IMG/VR virus record: IMGVR_UViG_3300031920_000115
Span: 1-21,459 of that record
DNA length: 21,459 nucleotides
Strand: one strand, 5' to 3'
Origin: a virus
Position 1 is the first letter of the stretch, and every line of letters begins with the position of its first letter. Position numbers and translations under genes: made by a program. The notes under the pieces were generated by a model. It did no database searches and had not been told where the DNA came from. It saw only the letters and a list, made by a program, of their open reading frames with translations. Shown here piece after piece: positions 241-20,798 of the stretch.

Positions 241-3099
241 CTAGGCCGTAAGGGTCTTCTGGCTGAACCTGAACCTAATAAATTCTCCCGGTCGGTTTGG
301 TGCAATTCCGATGTCCACAACAACCTGTCCAAGGTTAGCAACCTCAGGAGGATTGTTTGTTCCATCACAGATTACAAAGAACGCTTGGCCAGGAGATGAT
401 CCCGCGAAGTGTCCAGTGTTGTATAGATTGAGAAGGAACCCATCAACAGTTGTCTTGATCTGAGAATACAGGTTCGAAGTAATCGACTCGAATACGAATC
501 CAAAGGTTGAATTGAAAATTGACTTCTCAACGAACTGAAACAAGCGAACAGCATTGATGTACCTGAGTACATCATTCGTCGGGGACATAGTCCTGACACC
601 CCAAACCGCAAGACCAGTCTGAGTGGTATTGATAAGCGGATTGATACGTACTGGGTAGACCGTATCCCTTTCGCCCTTATCAGGGTCACTCTCTAGCCCT
701 GTAAGGAACCGTAGAGCACCGTCGATGGTGCCACCTGGCGCCTTGCCGACATTTCTCGTGGAATCGGTCCTTGAGTAGATTCCGGCAACCCATGCCAGTG
801 GGGGAACGGTAAGTATTTTGGCGGCATTGGTCGGATCTGTAACTCTGATCCAGGGCCAGTACATGGCCGCGAACTTGGTCTTCCTTGGGAATGTGATGGT
901 CTTGAAGTCTTTAGCCTCTTGAGCATTCATGCCGATTGGAGTCGAAAAGATATTGAATATGTCGAGGCGATTCTCAGCATAGTCAATTTGGTCCCCCATA
1001 ACCGTCGTGTCGCCTGCGAATTTCGGTATGATGAGTTGCATCACTTCATCAATTCGATCGAGGGCAAACATGCCTCGTCGATTAGGCTGAAGAATTGGGC
1101 TGGAGAACTGTGTCCTGTCGAATGTAGCTCCGCTTAGCGTTCCATCGGCACCACCTAGGAATGTGTAATCGATGCTAGTGGATGCTGGATTGGAAATGTA
1201 GCTAGCAGTGATAGACGTTCCATCGGCAGGAGCATTTGCACCAGCCAGGAAGTTCAACTCCCATACGCCAGTCAGGTAATTCACGGAGTTGGTCTTAGTT
1301 ATATCAAGACCAGTTCCAGTAATAAGACCGTTGACGTCTGCCACTAGAGTTCTCAAAGGAAGACCAGAGGCAGCTTCATAGGTGACTATCAGTGAAGTCT
1401 TTACTACTGAAGGCCAAGCCAGAGTTCCTGTGAAGTTTATTGTAGGAGTTAGATCTCCAGCGCCAAGAATCTCAGCGGTTCTGTTGACACCTTTGAGCGC
1501 TGATGGGATGTCCAATGCGCCAGTATCTGTAACCGCAACGAAATCAGAGTTATCGTTCATGATGTCGGGGAAATATAGAGGGTCTGCGGAGTCGTTAAAG
1601 ACAACCTCCTCGTACGTTTCCTTGACCTCATCCTCGCCAGTAACCGTGCTTGCAAGAAGAATTGATATATCGAACTTAGAGTATTCACCCGCTCCAGTAA
1701 CCGACTGATCACCTGAAGTGAAAAAGTTCTCGTTACCGGAAATTCTCAGCTTGAGACGACTTGACCACTCGCCGACATTGTCGGCGTCCAATTCCCACTG
1801 GCAGTAGCTATAATCGACAACCACATCATTGCCATCGAATGGAACATCGGTACCGCCCGTAAAGGTAACGCTGATGGCACCAGTTGCATAGTCAACGACT
1901 CCGGCCACTCCGGTACCGCCAACGGTAGCCAAGGTGAAGACTCCTAGTCCGTCGTCTGTGACTGTCTGTAGAGCACCGCCGGCATCATAGTCAACGGTAA
2001 TACCAGCAGCAGGCTCTGGGCCGTTATCTGTGCCTGGAACGCTCACATTGAACGTAATACTCAGGGCGCCAGTATCTCGATTGATAGTGGCCGCAGAAAC
2101 ACGACCTACGTCAGCACCACCTAATGCGTCGGCACTATCGATAGTTAAGACCTTCGCAACGAGAGCAGCGCCTCCCACGTAAGCGCCAGGAGCACCTGTA
2201 GTCCAGGCGCTGAGAACGTCGGCAATGGTTTCAGAAACCACCGTGCCGTTGCCAGCAAGGCCACCGACGATCGTGTAGCCCCGCATAGTAGCAGCCGTCA
2301 GCTTTACTGCAGCAGATGTCGTGTGAGTTACGGTGAGCGCATCGTAGAGCGTCCCGGAGCCAGCGCCGCCTGTGATGGCAGCGATCAGGTTATCCATAGT
2401 ATTTTCTGCGGTACCACCAATTAGGATGTCATTTGCAACACCTGAAGGGATCGCAGCAACGAACTGATAAGTCTTGGCATCAATCGTGATCGTCTCGGCA
2501 GCGAGAGGATTGGAATTGAACGTGAAGACATCCGATGCCTGAATAGCCTCAGACCAGTTAATGGTCACATTGGCGTCAGTCAGGGGAAGGTTTAACAGGG
2601 AAGTTCCTGTGTATGGTCCAGCTACAGCTTCTGCTGGAGCTGGACTTAGCCCAGTCGGAACTTCTCCGGTAAATGCTCCAGCCGGATCATTACGCCATCC
2701 AATCGTAACTGAACTCTTGAATAGAGGAAGGTTGACCATTGTGGCGGCAAGGGTCTGAGGAGATGTGCCGTCGCCTAGGCCAAGGGCCTCTCCGACTACC
2801 GGTTCCGTTATGCAGGACTCTCCTGCTAGAGCATCGGTAGGGACAACGCGAACCATATAGGCCCTGGTTCCGCCATTGGAGAAGAATGCTTGAACTGAGA
2901 TCGGAATTCGGGAGTCATTTGTGTACTCGCCAAATGTACGACCAAAGTCGTCATTGCTGGTTATGAGCTTTGCCTCATCAACGGGGCCACGACGGGCCCA
3001 GCCAACGGTGGCCATTGTCGAGGTACCAACCGCATCGACCTGCTGGCCGCTTACGTTGACTTCCTCGATAAAAATCCCTGCAGATAGAAATTCAGCCAC
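241..3099 (-). CDS. Contractile tail sheath protein with large inserted beta domains
   Basis: This is the sheath subunit that polymerises around the tail tube and contracts on infection. The N-terminus (MAEFLSAGIFIEEVNVSG, then SVQAFFSNGGTRAYMVRVVP at 68-87) is the classic sheath opening, with the Gly-Gly-Thr-Arg-Ala-Tyr signature. The C-terminal part (about 700-952) is the conserved sheath core: GMNAQEAKDFKTITFPRKTK at 723-742, YWPWIRVTDP at 747-756, and a last domain ending VVVDIGIAPNRPGEFIRFRF at 926-945. At 952 residues it is long (T4 gp18 is 659). Residues of about 100-440 and 540-640 look like inserted Ala/Gly/Thr-rich beta domains. One of these, at 190-300, is a DTVTI-type module (ETITIDAKTYQFVAAIPSG). 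The start is GTG at 3097-3099, chosen because AGGAGG lies 6 bases upstream (AGGAGGCAATAGTG). Confidence 0.95.
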   Translation of the reverse strand: MAEFLSAGIFIEEVNVSGQQVDAVGTSTMATVGWARRGPVDEAKLITSNDDFGRTFGEYTNDSRIPISVQAFFSNGGTRAYMVRVVPTDALAGESCITEPVVGEALGLGDGTSPQTLAATMVNLPLFKSSVTIGWRNDPAGAFTGEVPTGLSPAPAEAVAGPYTGTSLLNLPLTDANVTINWSEAIQASDVFTFNSNPLAAETITIDAKTYQFVAAIPSGVANDILIGGTAENTMDNLIAAITGGAGSGTLYDALTVTHTTSAAVKLTAATMRGYTIVGGLAGNGTVVSETIADVLSAWTTGAPGAYVGGAALVAKVLTIDSADALGGADVGRVSAATINRDTGALSITFNVSVPGTDNGPEPAAGITVDYDAGGALQTVTDDGLGVFTLATVGGTGVAGVVDYATGAISVTFTGGTDVPFDGNDVVVDYSYCQWELDADNVGEWSSRLKLRISGNENFFTSGDQSVTGAGEYSKFDISILLASTVTGEDEVKETYEEVVFNDSADPLYFPDIMNDNSDFVAVTDTGALDIPSALKGVNRTAEILGAGDLTPTINFTGTLAWPSVVKTSLIVTYEAASGLPLRTLVADVNGLITGTGLDITKTNSVNYLTGVWELNFLAGANAPADGTSITASYISNPASTSIDYTFLGGADGTLSGATFDRTQFSSPILQPNRRGMFALDRIDEVMQLIIPKFAGDTTVMGDQIDYAENRLDIFNIFSTPIGMNAQEAKDFKTITFPRKTKFAAMYWPWIRVTDPTNAAKILTVPPLAWVAGIYSRTDSTRNVGKAPGGTIDGALRFLTGLESDPDKGERDTVYPVRINPLINTTQTGLAVWGVRTMSPTNDVLRYINAVRLFQFVEKSIFNSTFGFVFESITSNLYSQIKTTVDGFLLNLYNTGHFAGSSPGQAFFVICDGTNNPPEVANLGQVVVDIGIAPNRPGEFIRFRFSQKTLTA

Positions 3100-11588: not shown

Positions 11589-11609
11589 GTTGTTGTTGTT
11601 GTTGTTGTT
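11589..11609 (-). repeat. (AAC)7 trinucleotide repeat between scaffold and capsid genes
   Basis: Seven tandem AAC units on the minus strand begin within the TAA stop codon of the protease-scaffold gene and lie 30 bases before the capsid ATG. The stretch is unstructured CA-rich leader, similar in composition to translation-enhancing CAA leaders. It is also a tract that could vary in length. Confidence 0.9.
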
Positions 11610-12648
11610 AGTTTCGCGGGTCGTCTTCAGACAACCCAGCGAGGGCACGGATATCAGACAGATTGGCTCCGAGCCCGTTGTAGTTTTGAGCGATCGGATG
11701 ATCACTCTGACCGTTACTTACTTCTGCACTCTCTTGTAGATACTCGCGAGTGCCGCTATTCAAAATTCCTCGAACACGAGCCCTAGCAGACTCCACATCC
11801 TCCGTCATCGAGATCTTTGGATGTGAGTGAGTAAGGATACTATCCACGTCGAGCTTGCTCTGAGGCTGATGCGCCTCTACCAAGCTGCGTGCGTAGTCTG
11901 CATTAGGATGATTCACCAAGCGCTGCTCAAGATAGACCTGAGAAGCAAGATGCTTACTTGCTTCAAGAGCCTTCTCAGCAATGAGCTTATGCTCAGTAAC
12001 CTGAGCCCTAAGCCTAGTCACCTCTTCGCTATGCGCGTCCTCATCGATAGCCTGATTAGCCATCTCCTCAACTATGTCTGAGATTCGAGCGTCCATCTCA
12101 GGAACCGTTGCGTAGTTACCTACGTCACCAACCAGATCTCGGACAAGCCCTGCATTCTCGACTCCGTTGAGCTTCTGCTCAAGGTGGAACCTATAACCAG
12201 CCTCGCGTGCAATCGAGGCGAGCTTATCGTTCTCTTGCTGGAGATTGACCAGTTGGAGATCCCTGTCGGCAATCATATTCTCAAGAAAGGAGATCTTATC
12301 CTCCTTCTCTTGAACAACATGCTCGACATCCTCAGGGATAATGTATGGACGAAGAACATCCTTGAGTTCACCGAGCGCTGCCTTCGCGCCGGCCACCGAA
12401 GGGTCGTTCATTAGACGCTTAGTGATGGTCTCTTCCATCTCTGCTTTTGCGTCTTTAATAGCTGACTCAAGCTTGTCAGCGAACTCCGTACGAAGATCGG
12501 TAGATGCCTCTTGCTTTGCACCAGTGATCTTCTTTGCCCAGATCTCTGCGCCACGCTTCTCGTACTCACGCTCAGCGTCGTGCATCCAGCTCGCCGCCAG
12601 CTCTGGGTTGCTTTCCTTGAGCTGCTCGAAAGTCATATTCTTATCCAT
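11608..12648 (-). CDS. Nested scaffold protein from an internal in-frame start
   Basis: An in-frame ATG at 12646-12648 (residue 190 of the fusion) is preceded by GTGGAGG, with GGAGG 5 bases before the ATG. It lies exactly at the junction between the protease domain and the helical scaffold. Initiation here would give a 346-residue scaffold (MDKNMTFEQLKESNPELAAS at the start) without the protease. This layout is known from lambda, where the scaffold Nu3 is made from an internal start in the protease gene C. The signal is stronger than the SD of the full-length protein, which would make the scaffold more abundant than the protease, as assembly needs. This is predicted, not demonstrated. Confidence 0.65.
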   Translation of the reverse strand: MDKNMTFEQLKESNPELAASWMHDAEREYEKRGAEIWAKKITGAKQEASTDLRTEFADKLESAIKDAKAEMEETITKRLMNDPSVAGAKAALGELKDVLRPYIIPEDVEHVVQEKEDKISFLENMIADRDLQLVNLQQENDKLASIAREAGYRFHLEQKLNGVENAGLVRDLVGDVGNYATVPEMDARISDIVEEMANQAIDEDAHSEEVTRLRAQVTEHKLIAEKALEASKHLASQVYLEQRLVNHPNADYARSLVEAHQPQSKLDVDSILTHSHPKISMTEDVESARARVRGILNSGTREYLQESAEVSNGQSDHPIAQNYNGLGANLSDIRALAGLSEDDPRN

Positions 12649-13215
12649 ATTTGCCTCCACGAAACTAGTAGTGTCGGTAGTGTCAGGCTCGTTGCCCTCC
12701 ACATGAACTACTGGGTATGCCGATTGTTGAGCGGGGTCTGCGACAAAATCAAAGGTCATAAGTCTGTAGTCGTCCTGGACAACAGACTCGCCCTTCATGT
12801 TCGGCTTTGTAGTTCCGAACCCGCGAGATGAGACCCCAACGGCTCCGCCTGCGTCGAGGATAGCCTTGAGATTCCTACCCTGATCGGTGTCGAGGATATG
12901 GGCAGTTCCTATAACCACGTCACCTTCAAGGTGAAGGTCGCTGATGATGTGAGAAGTACGCTTAAGCTGAGTACGACCATCCATCGGGTGGTCCAACTCT
13001 CCATAGACTTTCATCTCGGAGAGTTGCTTGCCGAGTCGGCCAAGCTCCCGCTCCCACAACCTATGGTTGTACAGACGCTTGTTCTCCGTTGCACGATCTG
13101 CGCGAGCGAACTCGCCACGAGCTACGTACTTGCCAGGACCATCCTTTGACTCTTCTAAGGCAGTCGCCCTGAAGGTCATGGTGTCAATAAGTAGTTCTTT
13201 TTCTGTTCCCGACAT
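11608..13215 (-). CDS. Prohead protease fused to scaffold/core protein (T4 gp21 + gp22-like)
   Basis: This 535-residue protein has an N-terminal serine protease domain of the herpesvirus-assemblin/T4 gp21 type (about 1-170). The catalytic His is in YGELDHP (H76), the Ser in GAVGVSSRGFG (S129 or S130), and a closing FDFVADPAQQ lies at 155-164. The opening includes ENKRLYNHRLWERELGRL. The rest (about 190-535) is acidic, helical scaffold with a coiled coil at about 300-340, and a duplicated unit (YRFHLEQKL at 341 and VYLEQRLV at 427). In T4 the protease and core scaffold are separate genes; here they are one ORF. The protease probably digests the core and trims the capsid protein. The start at 13213-13215 is 2 bases after the TAA of the frameshift extension, so it may be translationally coupled. 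Confidence 0.9.
   Translation of the reverse strand: MSGTEKELLIDTMTFRATALEESKDGPGKYVARGEFARADRATENKRLYNHRLWERELGRLGKQLSEMKVYGELDHPMDGRTQLKRTSHIISDLHLEGDVVIGTAHILDTDQGRNLKAILDAGGAVGVSSRGFGTTKPNMKGESVVQDDYRLMTFDFVADPAQQSAYPVVHVEGNEPDTTDTTSFVEANMDKNMTFEQLKESNPELAASWMHDAEREYEKRGAEIWAKKITGAKQEASTDLRTEFADKLESAIKDAKAEMEETITKRLMNDPSVAGAKAALGELKDVLRPYIIPEDVEHVVQEKEDKISFLENMIADRDLQLVNLQQENDKLASIAREAGYRFHLEQKLNGVENAGLVRDLVGDVGNYATVPEMDARISDIVEEMANQAIDEDAHSEEVTRLRAQVTEHKLIAEKALEASKHLASQVYLEQRLVNHPNADYARSLVEAHQPQSKLDVDSILTHSHPKISMTEDVESARARVRGILNSGTREYLQESAEVSNGQSDHPIAQNYNGLGANLSDIRALAGLSEDDPRN
12654..12658 (-). promoter_or_regulatory. Internal Shine-Dalgarno for the nested scaffold
   Basis: GGAGG on the minus strand, 5 bases upstream of the in-frame ATG at residue 190 of the protease-scaffold fusion. 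It is within coding sequence (the codons for Val-Glu-Ala) and is a full match to the anti-SD core, unlike the weak AAGG before the full-length start. Confidence 0.7.

Positions 13216-13447: not shown

Positions 13448-13457
<10 letters not shown>
13218..13457 (-). CDS. -1 frame extension of the acidic core protein (79 codons)
   Basis: In the -1 frame relative to the 350-residue protein, an open stretch runs from the slip site to a TAA at 13218-13220. It has no ATG, GTG or TTG for its first 41 codons. It reads GPLASEEYRKNRDSYSSGRL and continues to a basic end (NSFKFWRKG). A frameshift at CCCTTTG would give a 427-residue product (348 + 79). The stop is 2 bases from the ATG of the next gene, as expected for a real coding frame. 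The alternative is a separate 38-residue gene from ATG at 13332-13334, with only a poor SD (AGG, 10 bases away). A one-base assembly error in the CCCTTTGGG tract would also produce this picture. Confidence 0.6.
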
Positions 13458-14500
<1,043 letters not shown>

Positions 14501-15572: not shown

Positions 15573-18500
15573 TCAACGACCAGGTATCGTCATCTTCACT
15601 TCGTTTAGAAGTTGGCCTAACTCACCAAGACGTCTCGCAGTTTCGGTATTAGATCCCATTATCGTCTCAAGATTATCTTCGACCAATTTCTCGTGTTCTC
15701 GATTCCCTTGGAATAATTCCTGCTCCGTTATTGGCTTATATCCGAGGTGCTGTCTCATTTGTGGCCACCTACGGGACAAAGCACCAGAAGCACGAAAAGC
15801 TGCCCGCAATTCTTCTGAAGCCTGAGTGCTTCCACCTGCGGCGGCGGTTGCCAATGTCTGCTGAGCTGCCTGCTGCTGAGTCTGGATCTCTGCCTGAGCT
15901 GCCTGCTGCTGAACGGCCCCCTGGCTCTGAACATCCATCTGAAGACCCATTGCCTTAGCCTGGATCTCTGCATCAGAGAGCTGCTCTTGGTGGCGCTCTT
16001 TGATGATGTATTCGATCTCTTCTTCGCTAAGTCCAAATACTTTCTGGAGAATCCAGTGCAGAGATACGAATTGTTGCATCCGCCCGGCAAAGTCTGCCTT
16101 GGCGTTTCTGACCTCTAGCTGCGCCAGCTCGAAGATCGAACTGGGCGTGGTCATGTGGATTTCGAAATCAACTGCCGACGGATTGATATTCAAAGAAGCC
16201 AGGTGGACCCTGGCCATCTTTTTCATCCCGTTCCTCAGTTCGCGCTGTAAACGAAGGACAGTACGGGCGAATCTCACATCCTCCTGCGACAACACACCTT
16301 TGGCTCGCGGAGCTTCTGACCCAAGATAGACTTTAGGCACCTTGATGGCTGCGTAGAGCTTCAGCTTGAAATACTCAATATCCTCCATGTGCTGCCACGA
16401 AGGGCTGCCCACAACGTCAATCTTGGTCTGCTGAACTCCCTTGCGAACAGGGACAAAGAAGTCCTCGTCCTGAGAGAGAGGATTGTATTTGAGGTCTAAC
16501 TTACCGGTATTATGAACAAAAACGCCTCCAGTGAGTGCGAAGTTATGATACTTCTCGACGTCCATGTTGTAGACATCCTCGTGCCCCTCGAAGGTCACGC
16601 TCACTACTTTATGGTTATGGTTCTCACTCTTCTTGGTGGCCTCTCCACCGTATGTACGATTGTTCCAGGATGCCTGGCCTGTCTTCTTGTTCTTAAAGTC
16701 CTTGAATCCATCAAACCCTTGGCGCTTAAGGAATGCAAAAAGACACCCCGACGTCATTGTTGAGTTCTTCGTGGTTGGCAGGGATTCGTATATCTCAGTG
16801 AACGCCTCGTTGGAGTTGAGCCTCTCGACTAGCTCCTCTGTGACTACGAGGGGATCTCTGACTACCTCTGTGGATATTATGGCCATCAGGGCTGCCTGCC
16901 CGTCTGCGGCGAGTTCCTTGCGCTTAGCCATTATTTCTTTCCCGTGCTCGGAAAAGAAATTCTGAGCATCGGGACTATTCTCTCTCCAGTTCTCAAGCCT
17001 ATCCGATATGGTATTCCTGAACTCAGGGTCATCCTTGATGCACTTTACATATGCTTTGCGACCAGCCTCGGCGCGTTCGGGATGCTTTATGGCGTGCTCG
17101 CTAGCAGTCAATAACTCCAAGTTGTCCGGAGTATTGTTCGCCTTGTTATGATCGATATGGTGAACATGCAGTCCACTATTATCGGCAAGCTGCGTCCCAA
17201 ATGACTCTCCAACCATCCTGTGAACAGGACGACGCTCGCCGGTGCTAGGCTCCTGATACATCCAGTAACCCTGAGTCCCCTTGGAACCACGGGACATGTA
17301 GAGCGGCATCAGAGAGTCTCCGGACTCAAGCGTATTGGCAGCCTTATACTTGCCGTCACGCATCAGGAATGGATGGTTTCCAGTGCATCTAACTGTGGCG
17401 CCATTGTCCAGGACTACCCGCCATATGGGTGCGTCCTTGTGAGTTAGCCTTGGGTTCTTTGCCTTTCCGGGAACAACCTTGCCAGACTCCAGATCATACG
17501 AGAAAACGTCGAACTCCTTGTCCGCATAGTCACGGACAAGCTCAGCCATACTCTTGTCGGTACCATCCAACATGGTCACGCAAGTCTCCGCAGTAAGACA
17601 CTGAGGATTGTAGAACTTGGTCTTCTTGTACTGCTGACGAATCTTATGGAGAAACGCCATCGCCTCTTTTGGAGGCATGTCGCCAACGTCGATATAAAAG
17701 GCATACCTCTGCGGCGCACGCTGCAGCCTATAAACCATAGCCGCATCCTCCAGAAGCATAAGCCGCTTCCAGATCCACCTTGCCGGCTCAAGCACTGAGT
17801 ACCCGTAGATTGAACGACGGTGCTTGGAGCGGAGGCGCATATGGCAGACCTCCCAGTCCTCAAGGGCTGCGTATTTATCCTTAGCCTGCGACCCTGCGCC
17901 AGCCATGCGCTGCGTGAGAAGCTGCTTGAACTCATCGGGGCTATTATGAACAACCACACCATCTGCGATGAAGTTATGCGCTTCATCGTCAACCTCAAGA
18001 TCGTAAACATCTCCTTCGCCATAATAGGAAATGCCTAGAACATTCTCCGCCACGAACTGCTGATCGAACTTCGTGCTACTAATATGCAGGTTGAAGCACT
18101 CCCTCTGGCTCTGAATCGTTACCGATTTTCCCGTCCTACGATTCTGAATTACGGTTCCTGGCTTCCTCTTCCTGGAGCCTATGTTACCTGCCTTGTAGCC
18201 AAGTCCGTCGGCCATATTTTTTAGATCTCGAACGAGATCATAGTTGGCAAGCTCAATGTGCCATCCAGGTGTGCCGGTACTGGTCCTAGTATCCCATCCA
18301 TCGGCATCGATAAGACCAACTACAAATGCTTCACGATGTGCTTCAGGTAGTCCGTAGACCCAACTAGGGATACGCTTATTCTCTGCACCGTTAATCCACC
18401 CAAGCGAATCAAGCAGCCTGGCGAGCTGGACGGAATTTACACATGACTGTTCGCCGTTGTTTTTTGTCTTTACTTCGAGACTAAAAGACGAGAGCAGTGA

Positions 18501-20798
18501 TTCGTATAGGTCATTGCGTGATTCATCTGTTCCACGGGCAAAATACACACGCCCGGACGTATGGTCATATTCTCCGCCTTGGCCCCATCCAGATTGCTTA
18601 TAGGCATCCTCATTTGACCCAGGATCTCTCTGGCTATTTTCTATCCACCCATCGCCAAGCAAGAAGCCGAATAGGCGACAAAAGTCCTCCGTTGGACGAT
18701 CTGGTATCGTGATCTGACTAGGGCTACCCTTGTCACCCCATTTTCTATCGAACGGATCATATTCCTGAATAGAAGACCATTCCGGGACTTCCCCAGACGG
18801 CATTCTTGTCGAAATCACGATCTTATCCGACCGCGAGTAATCGATACTCTGCTTTGCGCCGTTGTAGCGGATGATCTTTAGATCTTTTACCTTAACCCAC
18901 TCGCGAGTTCCATCTGGACGCTCAGCATAGACAGGATGCTCATCTGTGAGAAAAATCTCCCTATGTCGGGTGTTTAGCTTGAATATTTTCTTGGTTCCCT
19001 GAACATGTCGCTTTACGAGCGGCATCGGAGTTTGGACGCCATCCTTGTAACCAACGATGGCTTTGGTCTCGTCGAAGTCTTGGATTTCAGACATACCATT
19101 GGCACCCCAGACTCGCGACCCCTTGGCCAAGCAGTACCCGAAGCGACCCTTGTAGTCCTGCACGAAGCCAAACAGCTCGCCACGACGACCCTCGATTCTC
19201 CGCATAGTAGGAGGGGGAAGGAAGTTCAAGCCCACGAGACCATCCTGGCTAACCAGGAGTTCTTCGTAGTTATTACCGTACTTGACAAGAGTCCTGGCTA
19301 TCTCCCAGATCTCCTCATCTATCCTTAGACGTCGCCAGAATAGATCCTCAAGGATAGTCTGAACAGTCTTGTCTGGACTATCTACCCAGACAGCACGATT
19401 CATCAGAGACTCAGTCTGGGTGGCATCGTCCGCATATATGTCAATTGCACTGTTGTGAATGAAGATAAATCCTTCGCCGGACGGATCTCCGACAGCGAAG
19501 TTGTGATAACCAGGAACCTCGATGTCGTAAACATCCTCCTCGCCAACGTACTCAACAGAGACGACGCGATGGTTTCCGTAGCTAGATTCACCAGGCTGTG
19601 GACCACCAAGGTTAGATCCAAGAATATCCCGGTCAATACCAAAGGTTTCAACCCGGCGAGCCAGCGTATTCCAAGAAACGTTGAGCTTCTTGCTCGCGTC
19701 ATTCAAAGACGACGAAGCTCGCAATGCCGCCTCAACGACATCCTTGGCCAACGGAATCGTCCGCCCTTTAGCTATCGCAGCACGATGCTCGTCTGAGAGC
19801 TTGCCGGCGGCCTGAAAAGACTTGTGCTTACCAGCCCTTTCGTTGTCCAACCATTCCGGCTCGCGACTCTGGTGAGTCTTGGAGACGCGGAGCTTGAAGG
19901 CAGGATCTGACCATTTCTTCTTGGTGCCCTCGGATATTTTTTTGACGTGCTCTTCGTGGGTACCAGGATGCTCCCAGTGAGACTTCACATGCTCACGAAG
20001 CGTCGTAACCTCAAGGTTTGAAGGTCTATAGTCAGTCTTGTCTCGATTGATATGGTGAACAACTTCGGAACTCTCGAAGTCACACCCGGTCACCGCGCCA
20101 GCTACCAGCTGATGGACATACTTATAGACGGGATTACCACCGCTGGTCCGCCGTAACGGCTCGTAAACCTCAGAGTATCCAGTAGAGCCAACGCGCAAGC
20201 TACAAGGCATCAATCGGTTGCCAGCGCGAAGCTCGTCCACCCTGCGATATTCACCATCACGGAGCATAAACAGATGATCGCCGGTCGCTTTGATGGACCA
20301 GGACTCTCCATTACCCCTGTACCCCTCGTAGGTAACTCGGTAGACCTCCTTAGTGCCAGTCTTGACTGGCCCCTTAGCCTTGGCAACCACAACTTTCTTG
20401 CTGGCATGGTCCATGGCGAAGACATACAGGTCGTCCGTATTACCTGACTCCCTAGCCTTCACAAGCTGCTCGACAGTAGCTCCGAGTTTTCTGTTGCTAC
20501 CCGGCTCACCTCGGGGTAAGGTATTGCTACCCGGAGAAAGTATGAATGATTCCGAAGAGATACACGCTAATTCCGGATAATCGTCCATTTCCTCGTAATC
20601 CACAAACCTCGCCATGAGGTCGTGTTCGAGCTTGAGATGGTCCGATAGGACATCGTGTCCGTATGACTGAAGAAGATCGAAGCCAGTCTGGGGATACCCA
20701 GATGCGGTTCCACCTTTTGCGAGATTTAGAACAACCTGTTCTTTATCCCAGCGAAGAAGTCCTCGGACCTGATGCCCAACGTTGCCCCAGAATCCCAT
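15573..20798 (-). CDS. Portal vertex protein (T4 gp20-like) interrupted by three inteins
   Basis: The precursor is 1741 residues. Removing inteins at 79-449, 556-952 and 1067-1430 leaves exteins 1-78, 450-555, 953-1066 and 1431-1741, a 609-residue portal (T4 gp20 has 524). The joined exteins read correctly: YPELA then SAIDIYADDATQ, FGY then SPDEFKQLLTQ, and FYNPQ then TGKLDLKYNPLSQDEDFFVP. The last spans the conserved gp20 region with Phe-Phe-x-Pro-x-x-x-Gly and HMEDIEYFKLKLYAAIKVPK (1470-1489). The portal forms the ring at one vertex that starts prohead assembly and is the DNA channel. The C-terminal end is Gln/Ala-rich (about 1620-1660). ATG at 20796-20798 with AAGGA 10 bases upstream. Confidence 0.95.
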   Translation of the reverse strand: MGFWGNVGHQVRGLLRWDKEQVVLNLAKGGTASGYPQTGFDLLQSYGHDVLSDHLKLEHDLMARFVDYEEMDDYPELACISSESFILSPGSNTLPRGEPGSNRKLGATVEQLVKARESGNTDDLYVFAMDHASKKVVVAKAKGPVKTGTKEVYRVTYEGYRGNGESWSIKATGDHLFMLRDGEYRRVDELRAGNRLMPCSLRVGSTGYSEVYEPLRRTSGGNPVYKYVHQLVAGAVTGCDFESSEVVHHINRDKTDYRPSNLEVTTLREHVKSHWEHPGTHEEHVKKISEGTKKKWSDPAFKLRVSKTHQSREPEWLDNERAGKHKSFQAAGKLSDEHRAAIAKGRTIPLAKDVVEAALRASSSLNDASKKLNVSWNTLARRVETFGIDRDILGSNLGGPQPGESSYGNHRVVSVEYVGEEDVYDIEVPGYHNFAVGDPSGEGFIFIHNSAIDIYADDATQTESLMNRAVWVDSPDKTVQTILEDLFWRRLRIDEEIWEIARTLVKYGNNYEELLVSQDGLVGLNFLPPPTMRRIEGRRGELFGFVQDYKGRFGYCLAKGSRVWGANGMSEIQDFDETKAIVGYKDGVQTPMPLVKRHVQGTKKIFKLNTRHREIFLTDEHPVYAERPDGTREWVKVKDLKIIRYNGAKQSIDYSRSDKIVISTRMPSGEVPEWSSIQEYDPFDRKWGDKGSPSQITIPDRPTEDFCRLFGFLLGDGWIENSQRDPGSNEDAYKQSGWGQGGEYDHTSGRVYFARGTDESRNDLYESLLSSFSLEVKTKNNGEQSCVNSVQLARLLDSLGWINGAENKRIPSWVYGLPEAHREAFVVGLIDADGWDTRTSTGTPGWHIELANYDLVRDLKNMADGLGYKAGNIGSRKRKPGTVIQNRRTGKSVTIQSQRECFNLHISSTKFDQQFVAENVLGISYYGEGDVYDLEVDDEAHNFIADGVVVHNSPDEFKQLLTQRMAGAGSQAKDKYAALEDWEVCHMRLRSKHRRSIYGYSVLEPARWIWKRLMLLEDAAMVYRLQRAPQRYAFYIDVGDMPPKEAMAFLHKIRQQYKKTKFYNPQCLTAETCVTMLDGTDKSMAELVRDYADKEFDVFSYDLESGKVVPGKAKNPRLTHKDAPIWRVVLDNGATVRCTGNHPFLMRDGKYKAANTLESGDSLMPLYMSRGSKGTQGYWMYQEPSTGERRPVHRMVGESFGTQLADNSGLHVHHIDHNKANNTPDNLELLTASEHAIKHPERAEAGRKAYVKCIKDDPEFRNTISDRLENWRENSPDAQNFFSEHGKEIMAKRKELAADGQAALMAIISTEVVRDPLVVTEELVERLNSNEAFTEIYESLPTTKNSTMTSGCLFAFLKRQGFDGFKDFKNKKTGQASWNNRTYGGEATKKSENHNHKVVSVTFEGHEDVYNMDVEKYHNFALTGGVFVHNTGKLDLKYNPLSQDEDFFVPVRKGVQQTKIDVVGSPSWQHMEDIEYFKLKLYAAIKVPKVYLGSEAPRAKGVLSQEDVRFARTVLRLQRELRNGMKKMARVHLASLNINPSAVDFEIHMTTPSSIFELAQLEVRNAKADFAGRMQQFVSLHWILQKVFGLSEEEIEYIIKERHQEQLSDAEIQAKAMGLQMDVQSQGAVQQQAAQAEIQTQQQAAQQTLATAAAGGSTQASEELRAAFRASGALSRRWPQMRQHLGYKPITEQELFQGNREHEKLVEDNLETIMGSNTETARRLGELGQLLNEVKMTIPGR
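16509..17600 (-). mobile_element. Portal intein 3, HNH type (364 residues)
   Basis: Residues 1067-1430 of the portal precursor. It starts with Cys (CLTAETCVTMLDG) and ends VHN before Thr (+1). The block B Thr-x-x-His is CTGNHPFLMRDG (T1139, H1142), and the block F region is EDVYNMDVEKYHNFAL. The endonuclease core is HVHHIDHNKANNTPDNLELL at 1211-1230 with H1235 and H1239 following, an HNH motif. A C-terminal part (about 1320-1370) looks like a helix-turn-helix DNA-binding region. The nucleophile, the block B Thr/His, and the terminal His-Asn are all present, so splicing is probably active. It sits in one of the most conserved gp20 segments, just before the TG of the signature. Confidence 0.93.
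17943..19133 (-). mobile_element. Portal intein 2, LAGLIDADG type (397 residues)
   Basis: Residues 556-952 of the portal precursor. It starts CLAKGSRVWGANG and ends VVVHN before Ser (+1). Block B is FLTDEHPVYA (T618, H621) and block F is GDVYDLEVDDEAHNFIADG. The homing endonuclease has both DOD motifs, LFGFLLGDGWIE at 709-720 and VVGLIDADGW at 826-835, each with its Asp (D716 and D833). All residues expected for splicing and for cutting are intact. The exteins joined are FGY and SPDEF. Unlike inteins 1 and 3, its endonuclease is of a different family, so it arrived independently. Confidence 0.94.
19452..20564 (-). mobile_element. Portal intein 1, HNH type (371 residues)
   Basis: Residues 79-449 of the portal precursor. 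It starts with Cys (CISSESFILSPG, a less typical block A) and ends FIFIHN before Ser (+1). Block B is ATGDHLFMLRDG (T172, H175) and block F is EDVYDIEVPGYHNFAV. The HNH core is VVHHINRDKTDYRPSNLEVT at 246-265, with H270 and H274 after it. There follow NUMOD3-like segments (EEHVKKISEGTKKKWSD and LSDEHRAAIAKGR) and a helix-turn-helix (SLNDASKKLNVSWNTLARRV, 364-383). The splicing residues are present. It resembles intein 3 in its blocks and HNH core. The joined exteins give YPELA followed by SAIDIYAD, a standard portal motif. Confidence 0.92.

Follow-up and report, generated by a model that had tools for sequence, protein, structure and literature searches.

Three putative homing inteins, probably acquired stepwise, in the T4 gp20-type portal gene of an uncultured phage

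The major finding of this analysis is a portal gene of an uncultured T4-like phage that contains three inteins, and the gene was very probably invaded stepwise by these as independent, selfish homing elements that would self-splice by the class 1 route. The gene was found on a 21.5-kb metagenome contig, an IMG/VR record of 21,459 bases, the whole of which is referred to here as the window. It forms a single unbroken frame of 5.2 kb and 1741 codons on the minus strand, is read with the standard code, and was divided into the following parts.

15573..20798, minus strand: portal gene with three inteins (1741-aa open reading frame; assigned by Pfam, phrog_213 and extein alignment)
20565..20798, minus strand: extein 1, residues 1-78, with AAGGA about 10 nt upstream of the ATG
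19452..20564, minus strand: intein A, 371 aa (frame residues 79-449), predicted class 1 with HNH endonuclease, after extein residue 78 (DYPELA/SAIDIY)
19134..19451, minus strand: extein 2, residues 79-184
17943..19133, minus strand: intein B, 397 aa (frame residues 556-952), predicted class 1 with LAGLIDADG endonuclease, after extein residue 184 (KGRFGY/SPDEFK)
17601..17942, minus strand: extein 3, residues 185-298
16509..17600, minus strand: intein C, 364 aa (frame residues 1067-1430), predicted class 1 with HNH endonuclease, after extein residue 298 (KFYNPQ/TGKLDL)
15573..16508, minus strand: extein 4, residues 299-609, and the stop codon

The initial annotation had proposed a T4 gp20-type portal with three inteins, and this was borne out by Pfam, NCBIfam and PHROG matches. 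The frame matched Portal_T4 (PF07230; 4e-59, with the match split into pieces) and phrog_213 (portal; 6.7e-51). The intein profiles each returned splicing domains three times, namely Pfam Intein_splicing over three stretches (143 bits), TIGR01445 for the intein N terminus, and TIGR01443 for the intein C terminus. The figures given in that annotation, with inteins of 371, 397 and 364 residues that start with Cys, end with His-Asn before Ser, Ser and Thr, respectively, and sum to 65% of the gene (1132 of 1741 residues), were all found to be correct. Once joined, the exteins make a T4 gp20-type portal of 609 aa, and the synteny fits this assignment, as a head protease (phrog_207) and a major head protein (phrog_138) lie downstream of the portal. 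The closest solved relative is T4 gp20 (PDB 3JA7; phmmer E value of 8.6e-22 over extein residues 174-470), which belongs to the same portal family but has no intein and a low overall identity; the +1 residues of T4, read from this alignment, are Thr for site C and Ser for site 309. An AlphaFold2 model of the intein-free portal of L003 had a pLDDT of 61, which was too low for mapping of the sites. With regard to the host, a scan of the portal alignment against 84,980 bacterial and archaeal genomes gave no relatives.

It had also been claimed that removal of the inteins leaves a continuous portal, and this held when the joined 609-aa exteins were used as the query and 80 portal loci were retrieved in viral contigs. 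Rather than failing to align across the junctions, nine intein-free relatives (L003 at 93% and L004 to L011 at 75 to 85%) aligned with the exteins end to end, with no gap at any of the three. A, B and C are each, as such, an in-frame insertion with a known empty allele. Alternative pairs of start and end points around each gap were then joined and ranked by their score against a portal HMM derived from the relatives, and boundaries placed before the Cys and after the His-Asn gave the top score at all three gaps. The peptides predicted to span the junctions after splicing are DDYPELASAIDIY, GRFGYSPDEFK, and FYNPQTGKLDLK. Introns were considered in place of inteins and were ruled out by the continuous frame and the presence of the splicing blocks.

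Judged by their sequences, A, B and C are class 1 inteins in which the splicing residues and endonuclease motifs are intact. Each has the class 1 nucleophile Cys1, block B reads TGDH in A, TDEH in B, and TGNH in C, and the C-terminal ends are HN/S, HN/S, and HN/T, respectively. Block F has Asp in A and B and Asn in C, at a position where most inteins have Asp; A also has a longer N terminus. When 30 HNH portal inteins were aligned, A and C from the window among them, the Cys1, the block B His, the terminal Asn, and the four His of the HNH motif were invariant. The HINT fold was assigned to C by predicted structure (AlphaFold2 mean pLDDT of 83.9, with the splicing blocks at about 95 or above, and PDB inteins as the top Foldseek matches) and to A and B by sequence profiles only. 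The endonucleases of A and C matched HNH_3 (PF13392; E value of 6e-21, two stretches). For B, both acidic LAGLIDADG motifs were read directly (LFGFLLGDG and FVVGLIDADG); the Pfam matches to Hom_end (0.0013) and LAGLIDADG_3 (0.0028) were both under the curated cut-offs, and a single-sequence search of the PDB gave weak matches only. Over most of their length A and C share 29% identity, from which common ancestry was deduced, and B matched A and C convincingly in the last 25 to 35 residues only.

The filling of the sites was compared among alleles of the window's clade, the exteins of which are 76 to 93% identical. No intein was present in L003 to L011, A was present in L012, A and D (site 371) in L063, A, C and D in L131, the intein at site 309 alone in L065, and A, B and C in the window, while slightly farther relatives had C (L207) or B and C (L231). 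This ladder of alleles is compatible with a stepwise build-up and does not amount to proof of it. The window intein A shared 44% identity with the one at site A in L124, whose exteins are 52% identical, and only 30% with those of L012 and L131, whose exteins are 92% and 86% identical. Since A is closer to the L124 copy than to the copies of near kin, vertical descent alongside the exteins fails as an explanation, and these identities point to invasion or replacement by a different lineage. Window B was 50% identical to the B inteins of L083 and L179. Window C and the C intein of L131 were 71% identical in amino acids (dN of 0.23) with saturated silent sites, and dN/dS for the window's inteins was uninformative owing to this saturation.

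Pairs of filled and empty alleles in the relatives were of particular interest with respect to homing. L129 and L125 share inteins at sites 78 and 309, and L129 has an extra one at site 138. A single base differs in their 1026 nt of extein, and it is the first base of the +1 codon of the 138 intein (AGC, Ser, in the filled L129; TGC, Cys, in the empty L125). For site A, the filled and empty pairs L059/L049 and L060/L045 were 98.4% and 98.9% identical in DNA, with five differences each in the 15 nt before the site (p values of 9e-5 and 9e-6, respectively). Such flank changes are what homing with short co-conversion should leave behind; loss by gene conversion would produce an identical picture, and the direction of the change is not shown by them. 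No such footprint was seen around the window's own three sites, where the closest relatives are about 18% divergent in DNA. The site-A inteins of L059 and L060 differ with a dN of 0.031 and a dS of 0.366, with the endonuclease region behaving alike, which indicates purifying selection. A further pair of near-identical portal alleles, L112 and L113, differs by one whole intein.

Splicing and homing of these copies of A, B and C are inferred, and the following course is proposed. Three independent mobile inteins would have entered the portal gene, probably one after another, and the 1741-aa precursor would be translated whole. Each HINT domain would then excise itself through an acyl shift at Cys1, transfer to the +1 Ser, Ser or Thr, and cyclization of the terminal Asn with help from the penultimate His. 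Ligation of the four exteins would give the 609-aa portal, which would assemble into a ring. The T4 portal is a ring of 12 subunits, and with three inteins in each this would come to 36 splicing events per ring. In a cell co-infected by a relative with a matching empty site, the HNH (A and C) or LAGLIDADG (B) endonuclease would cut that site, and repair of the break from the filled allele would spread the intein. The portal would be a suitable target because it is essential and conserved, such that imprecise loss of an intein would be lethal and target sites would recur.

Several observations count against this account, among them the block F Asn in C, the absence of a co-conversion footprint at the window's own sites, and the close spacing of the three intact endonucleases, whose empty targets span about 660 bp. 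Two adjacent inteins with active endonucleases were found to interfere with each other in homing into empty alleles (PMC10643990), and given such interference the three found here would be poorly suited to spreading together. The same Asn would be an argument for one or more of the inteins being dead for splicing and the gene a dead or dying copy. This was considered highly improbable, as the remaining catalytic residues are present, the 5.2-kb frame is open, and C has kept 71% identity to the L131 copy despite saturated silent sites; the portal is, moreover, an essential single-copy gene of T4-like phages. As the record is a metagenome contig, fusion of intein pieces of different phages during assembly was considered. 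It is scarcely credible given that the Cys and His-Asn boundaries are in frame at all three junctions and that other, independent contigs have inteins at these sites, with A, C and another in L131 and B and C in L231.

The endonucleases could be mainly weapons, with which a phage excludes intein-free competitors in the same cell by cleavage of their portal genes, and the inteins would then be kept for the benefit they bring to their phage. The intact endonuclease motifs in A, B and C, the essential nature of the target gene, and the existence of empty relatives would all suit this, and sequence alone cannot tell exclusion from homing; it was nevertheless regarded as unlikely, since many related phages have kept their sites empty (48 of the 58 complete portals among the matches listed). 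The inteins could also have been co-opted as a switch, with slow or conditional splicing delaying portal maturation such that heads are assembled only late or under suitable conditions. The portal initiates head assembly, so a delay could matter. Conditional splicing is documented in other inteins, for example that of mycobacterial DnaB (PMC6195587). A conserved switch should be fixed, however, whereas close relatives have between zero and three inteins, at sites that vary from one to the next, intein content differs even between near-identical alleles, close intein-free alleles persist, and intein A was horizontally acquired or replaced. No conserved timing role is visible, and the switch was deemed very unlikely. 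The initial annotation had suggested that three splicing steps could hold back portal formation until late in infection, and this suggestion found no support. Stepwise invasion by homing inteins is the reading adopted for the gene.

The occurrence of inteins in related portals was assessed by two pattern scans for intein-portal junctions and a follow-up pipeline, covering IMG/VR and GenBank portals. This gave 153 inteins in gp20-like portals, or 107 without near-duplicates. In the extein coordinates of the window they occupy at least 19 insertion sites (69, 73, 78 [A], 87, 133, 138, 140, 184 [B], 232, 245, 257, 293, 298 [C], 309, 333, 337, 346, 368, and 371 [D]), with boundaries in distant relatives set by profile and less secure than within the clade of the window. 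At least one intein was present in 61 of 111 distinct portals, three in 13, and four in two, counts that include inteins cut by contig ends and that come from an enriched sample, as it was found by junction search. The initial annotation had considered three inteins in one portal to be unusual, and this did not stand, as at least 15 distinct gp20-like portals, some of them truncated by contig ends, appear to have three or more. The complete portal of L107 has four in 1907 aa. In an intein-blind sample obtained with a C-terminal portal motif, inteins were present in 10 of 58 complete portals among the matches listed (17%), and a single portal, that of L218, had three, at B, site 309, and site 337. 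Each of the window's sites was also filled in other phages, with numerous examples for A, while B was seen in L083, L179, and L231 and C in L131, L207, and L231.

The type of endonuclease, as judged by motif, followed the position in the gene, with HNH at sites 69 to 87 and 293 to 371 and LAGLIDADG at sites 133 to 257, the exceptions being at site 133. For 86 of 97 inteins the best match was an intein at the same site (mean of 16 and maximum of 31 after shuffling), as homing specificity predicts; the inteins cluster by site rather than by the phage that has them. Taken together, the 19 sites fall in stretches with higher conservation than random positions (p = 0.005), and the window's three sites alone gave no such excess (p = 0.66). 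Models of the intein C terminus matched eight times in the 197-kb genome of L131 and six times in the 178-kb genome of L107, and gave no matches in the genomes of L003, L008, and L010. By eye, the genes hosting inteins in L131 resemble those for the terminase large subunit, portal, helicase, and RecA/UvsX, and in L107 several inteins were seen in ribonucleotide reductase-like and helicase-like genes. In L187 (G002:C1:135000-148500) and L190, a gene next to the portal resembles, again by eye, that of the terminase large subunit and has two inteins, giving a total of five for the packaging pair.

A group of related inteins was found to have Pro in place of Cys1. These were present in seven relatives, at site 309 in L065 (1965-3074, plus strand), L119, and L185 and at site 133 in L138, L135, L142, and L168, and an eighth was found in L218. 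In the seven, the block F Cys is invariant, the terminal Asn follows Arg, Lys, Ser, or Ala with no penultimate His, and the portal is joined exactly. The Pro1 inteins were inspected for the WCT motif of class 3, as described in PMC7664689, and neither its Trp nor its Thr was seen. In a tree, the Pro1 inteins cluster (support of 0.90) among the Cys1 HNH portal inteins, with the deeper branches weakly supported. What they present looks like a class 3-like shift of the nucleophile within class 1, and the site-309 intein of L112, which has Cys1 and the block F Cys together, is a possible intermediate. These Pro1 inteins bear on how class 3 splicing evolved.

A wider proposal covering all of these portals is put forward tentatively, and we consider it somewhat more apt to fail than to hold. 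It treats the gp20 portal as a nursery of intein diversification, in which a few ancestors, with HNH in the outer parts of the invaded region and LAGLIDADG in its central part, would have hopped between sites, A and C would derive from a common portal intein, and the number of inteins would have risen stepwise despite interference between neighbours. One HNH branch, at sites 309 and 133 in the relatives, would have changed Cys1 to Pro and moved its nucleophile to the block F Cys without the class 3 Trp and Thr, such that class 3-like chemistry was born within class 1.

Genes with several inteins are already known, and what is new is which gene is invaded, at how many sites, and how many inteins one gene can have. 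Portal inteins have been reported in mycobacteriophage cluster C1, together with terminases having seven insertion sites, which lie in the TerL ATPase domain (PMC5050341). The packaging-gene inteins described there are alike in being class 1 with an endonuclease, in including the portal, and in having many sites per packaging gene family. They differ in that the portal inteins amount to six examples, and no passage on several in one portal was found in that paper, whereas the relatives of the window have gp20-type portals with about 19 sites and up to four inteins per gene. The haloarchaeal MCM gene, with four neighbouring sites, is likewise a conserved gene with several mobile inteins, each with its own endonuclease and site, but it encodes an archaeal replicative helicase in which mostly two sites are filled, as opposed to three or four in a phage structural protein (PMC10643990). 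In crAss-like phages, a packaging gene also has more than one intein, with two in TerL and up to three per genome, but these phages are of another order, the gene is another, and group I introns and recoded stops are present, while the three inteins described here share a single portal gene (PMC7886860). A further parallel is the unannotated GenBank entry of the huge phage LR756508, which has a gp20-like portal with three inteins, although these are at sites 232, 245, and 368, two are mini-inteins without an endonuclease, and the portal is about 38% identical. In this locus (L102; LR756508.1, 144515-150904) the two mini-inteins are of 141 to 150 aa, and an upstream frame has another intein C terminus. 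The open-access literature gave no description of a gp20-type portal with several inteins, subscription journals being mostly uncovered.

Multi-intein genes have mostly been described for enzymes of replication, ATP-driven packaging, and nucleotide metabolism, and the portal is a purely structural phage protein. The natural alleles with no intein, A, C, B and C, A and D, A, C and D, and A, B and C would allow a test in phages of whether accumulation is stepwise only; for haloarchaea, accumulation of inteins through singly invaded alleles has been proposed (PMC10643990). The same set of alleles would also allow a test of whether 36 splicing events per ring carry a cost. Surveys of T4-like phages that are based on the portal will miss or split such genes, as the junctions sit in conserved motifs.

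Some further features of the window were noted. In the frame at 11608-13215 (minus strand), the match to the head maturation protease spans residues 6-284 of 535 only, and the remainder is a long, charged, helical-looking region, so the product is possibly a protease-scaffold fusion. The frame at 13448-14500 (minus strand) encodes 350 aa with no PHROG match and has a run of about 15 aspartates near the C terminus. The tail sheath gene at 241-3099 (minus strand) encodes 952 aa, compared to a profile of 496 positions, and thus has a large internal insertion.
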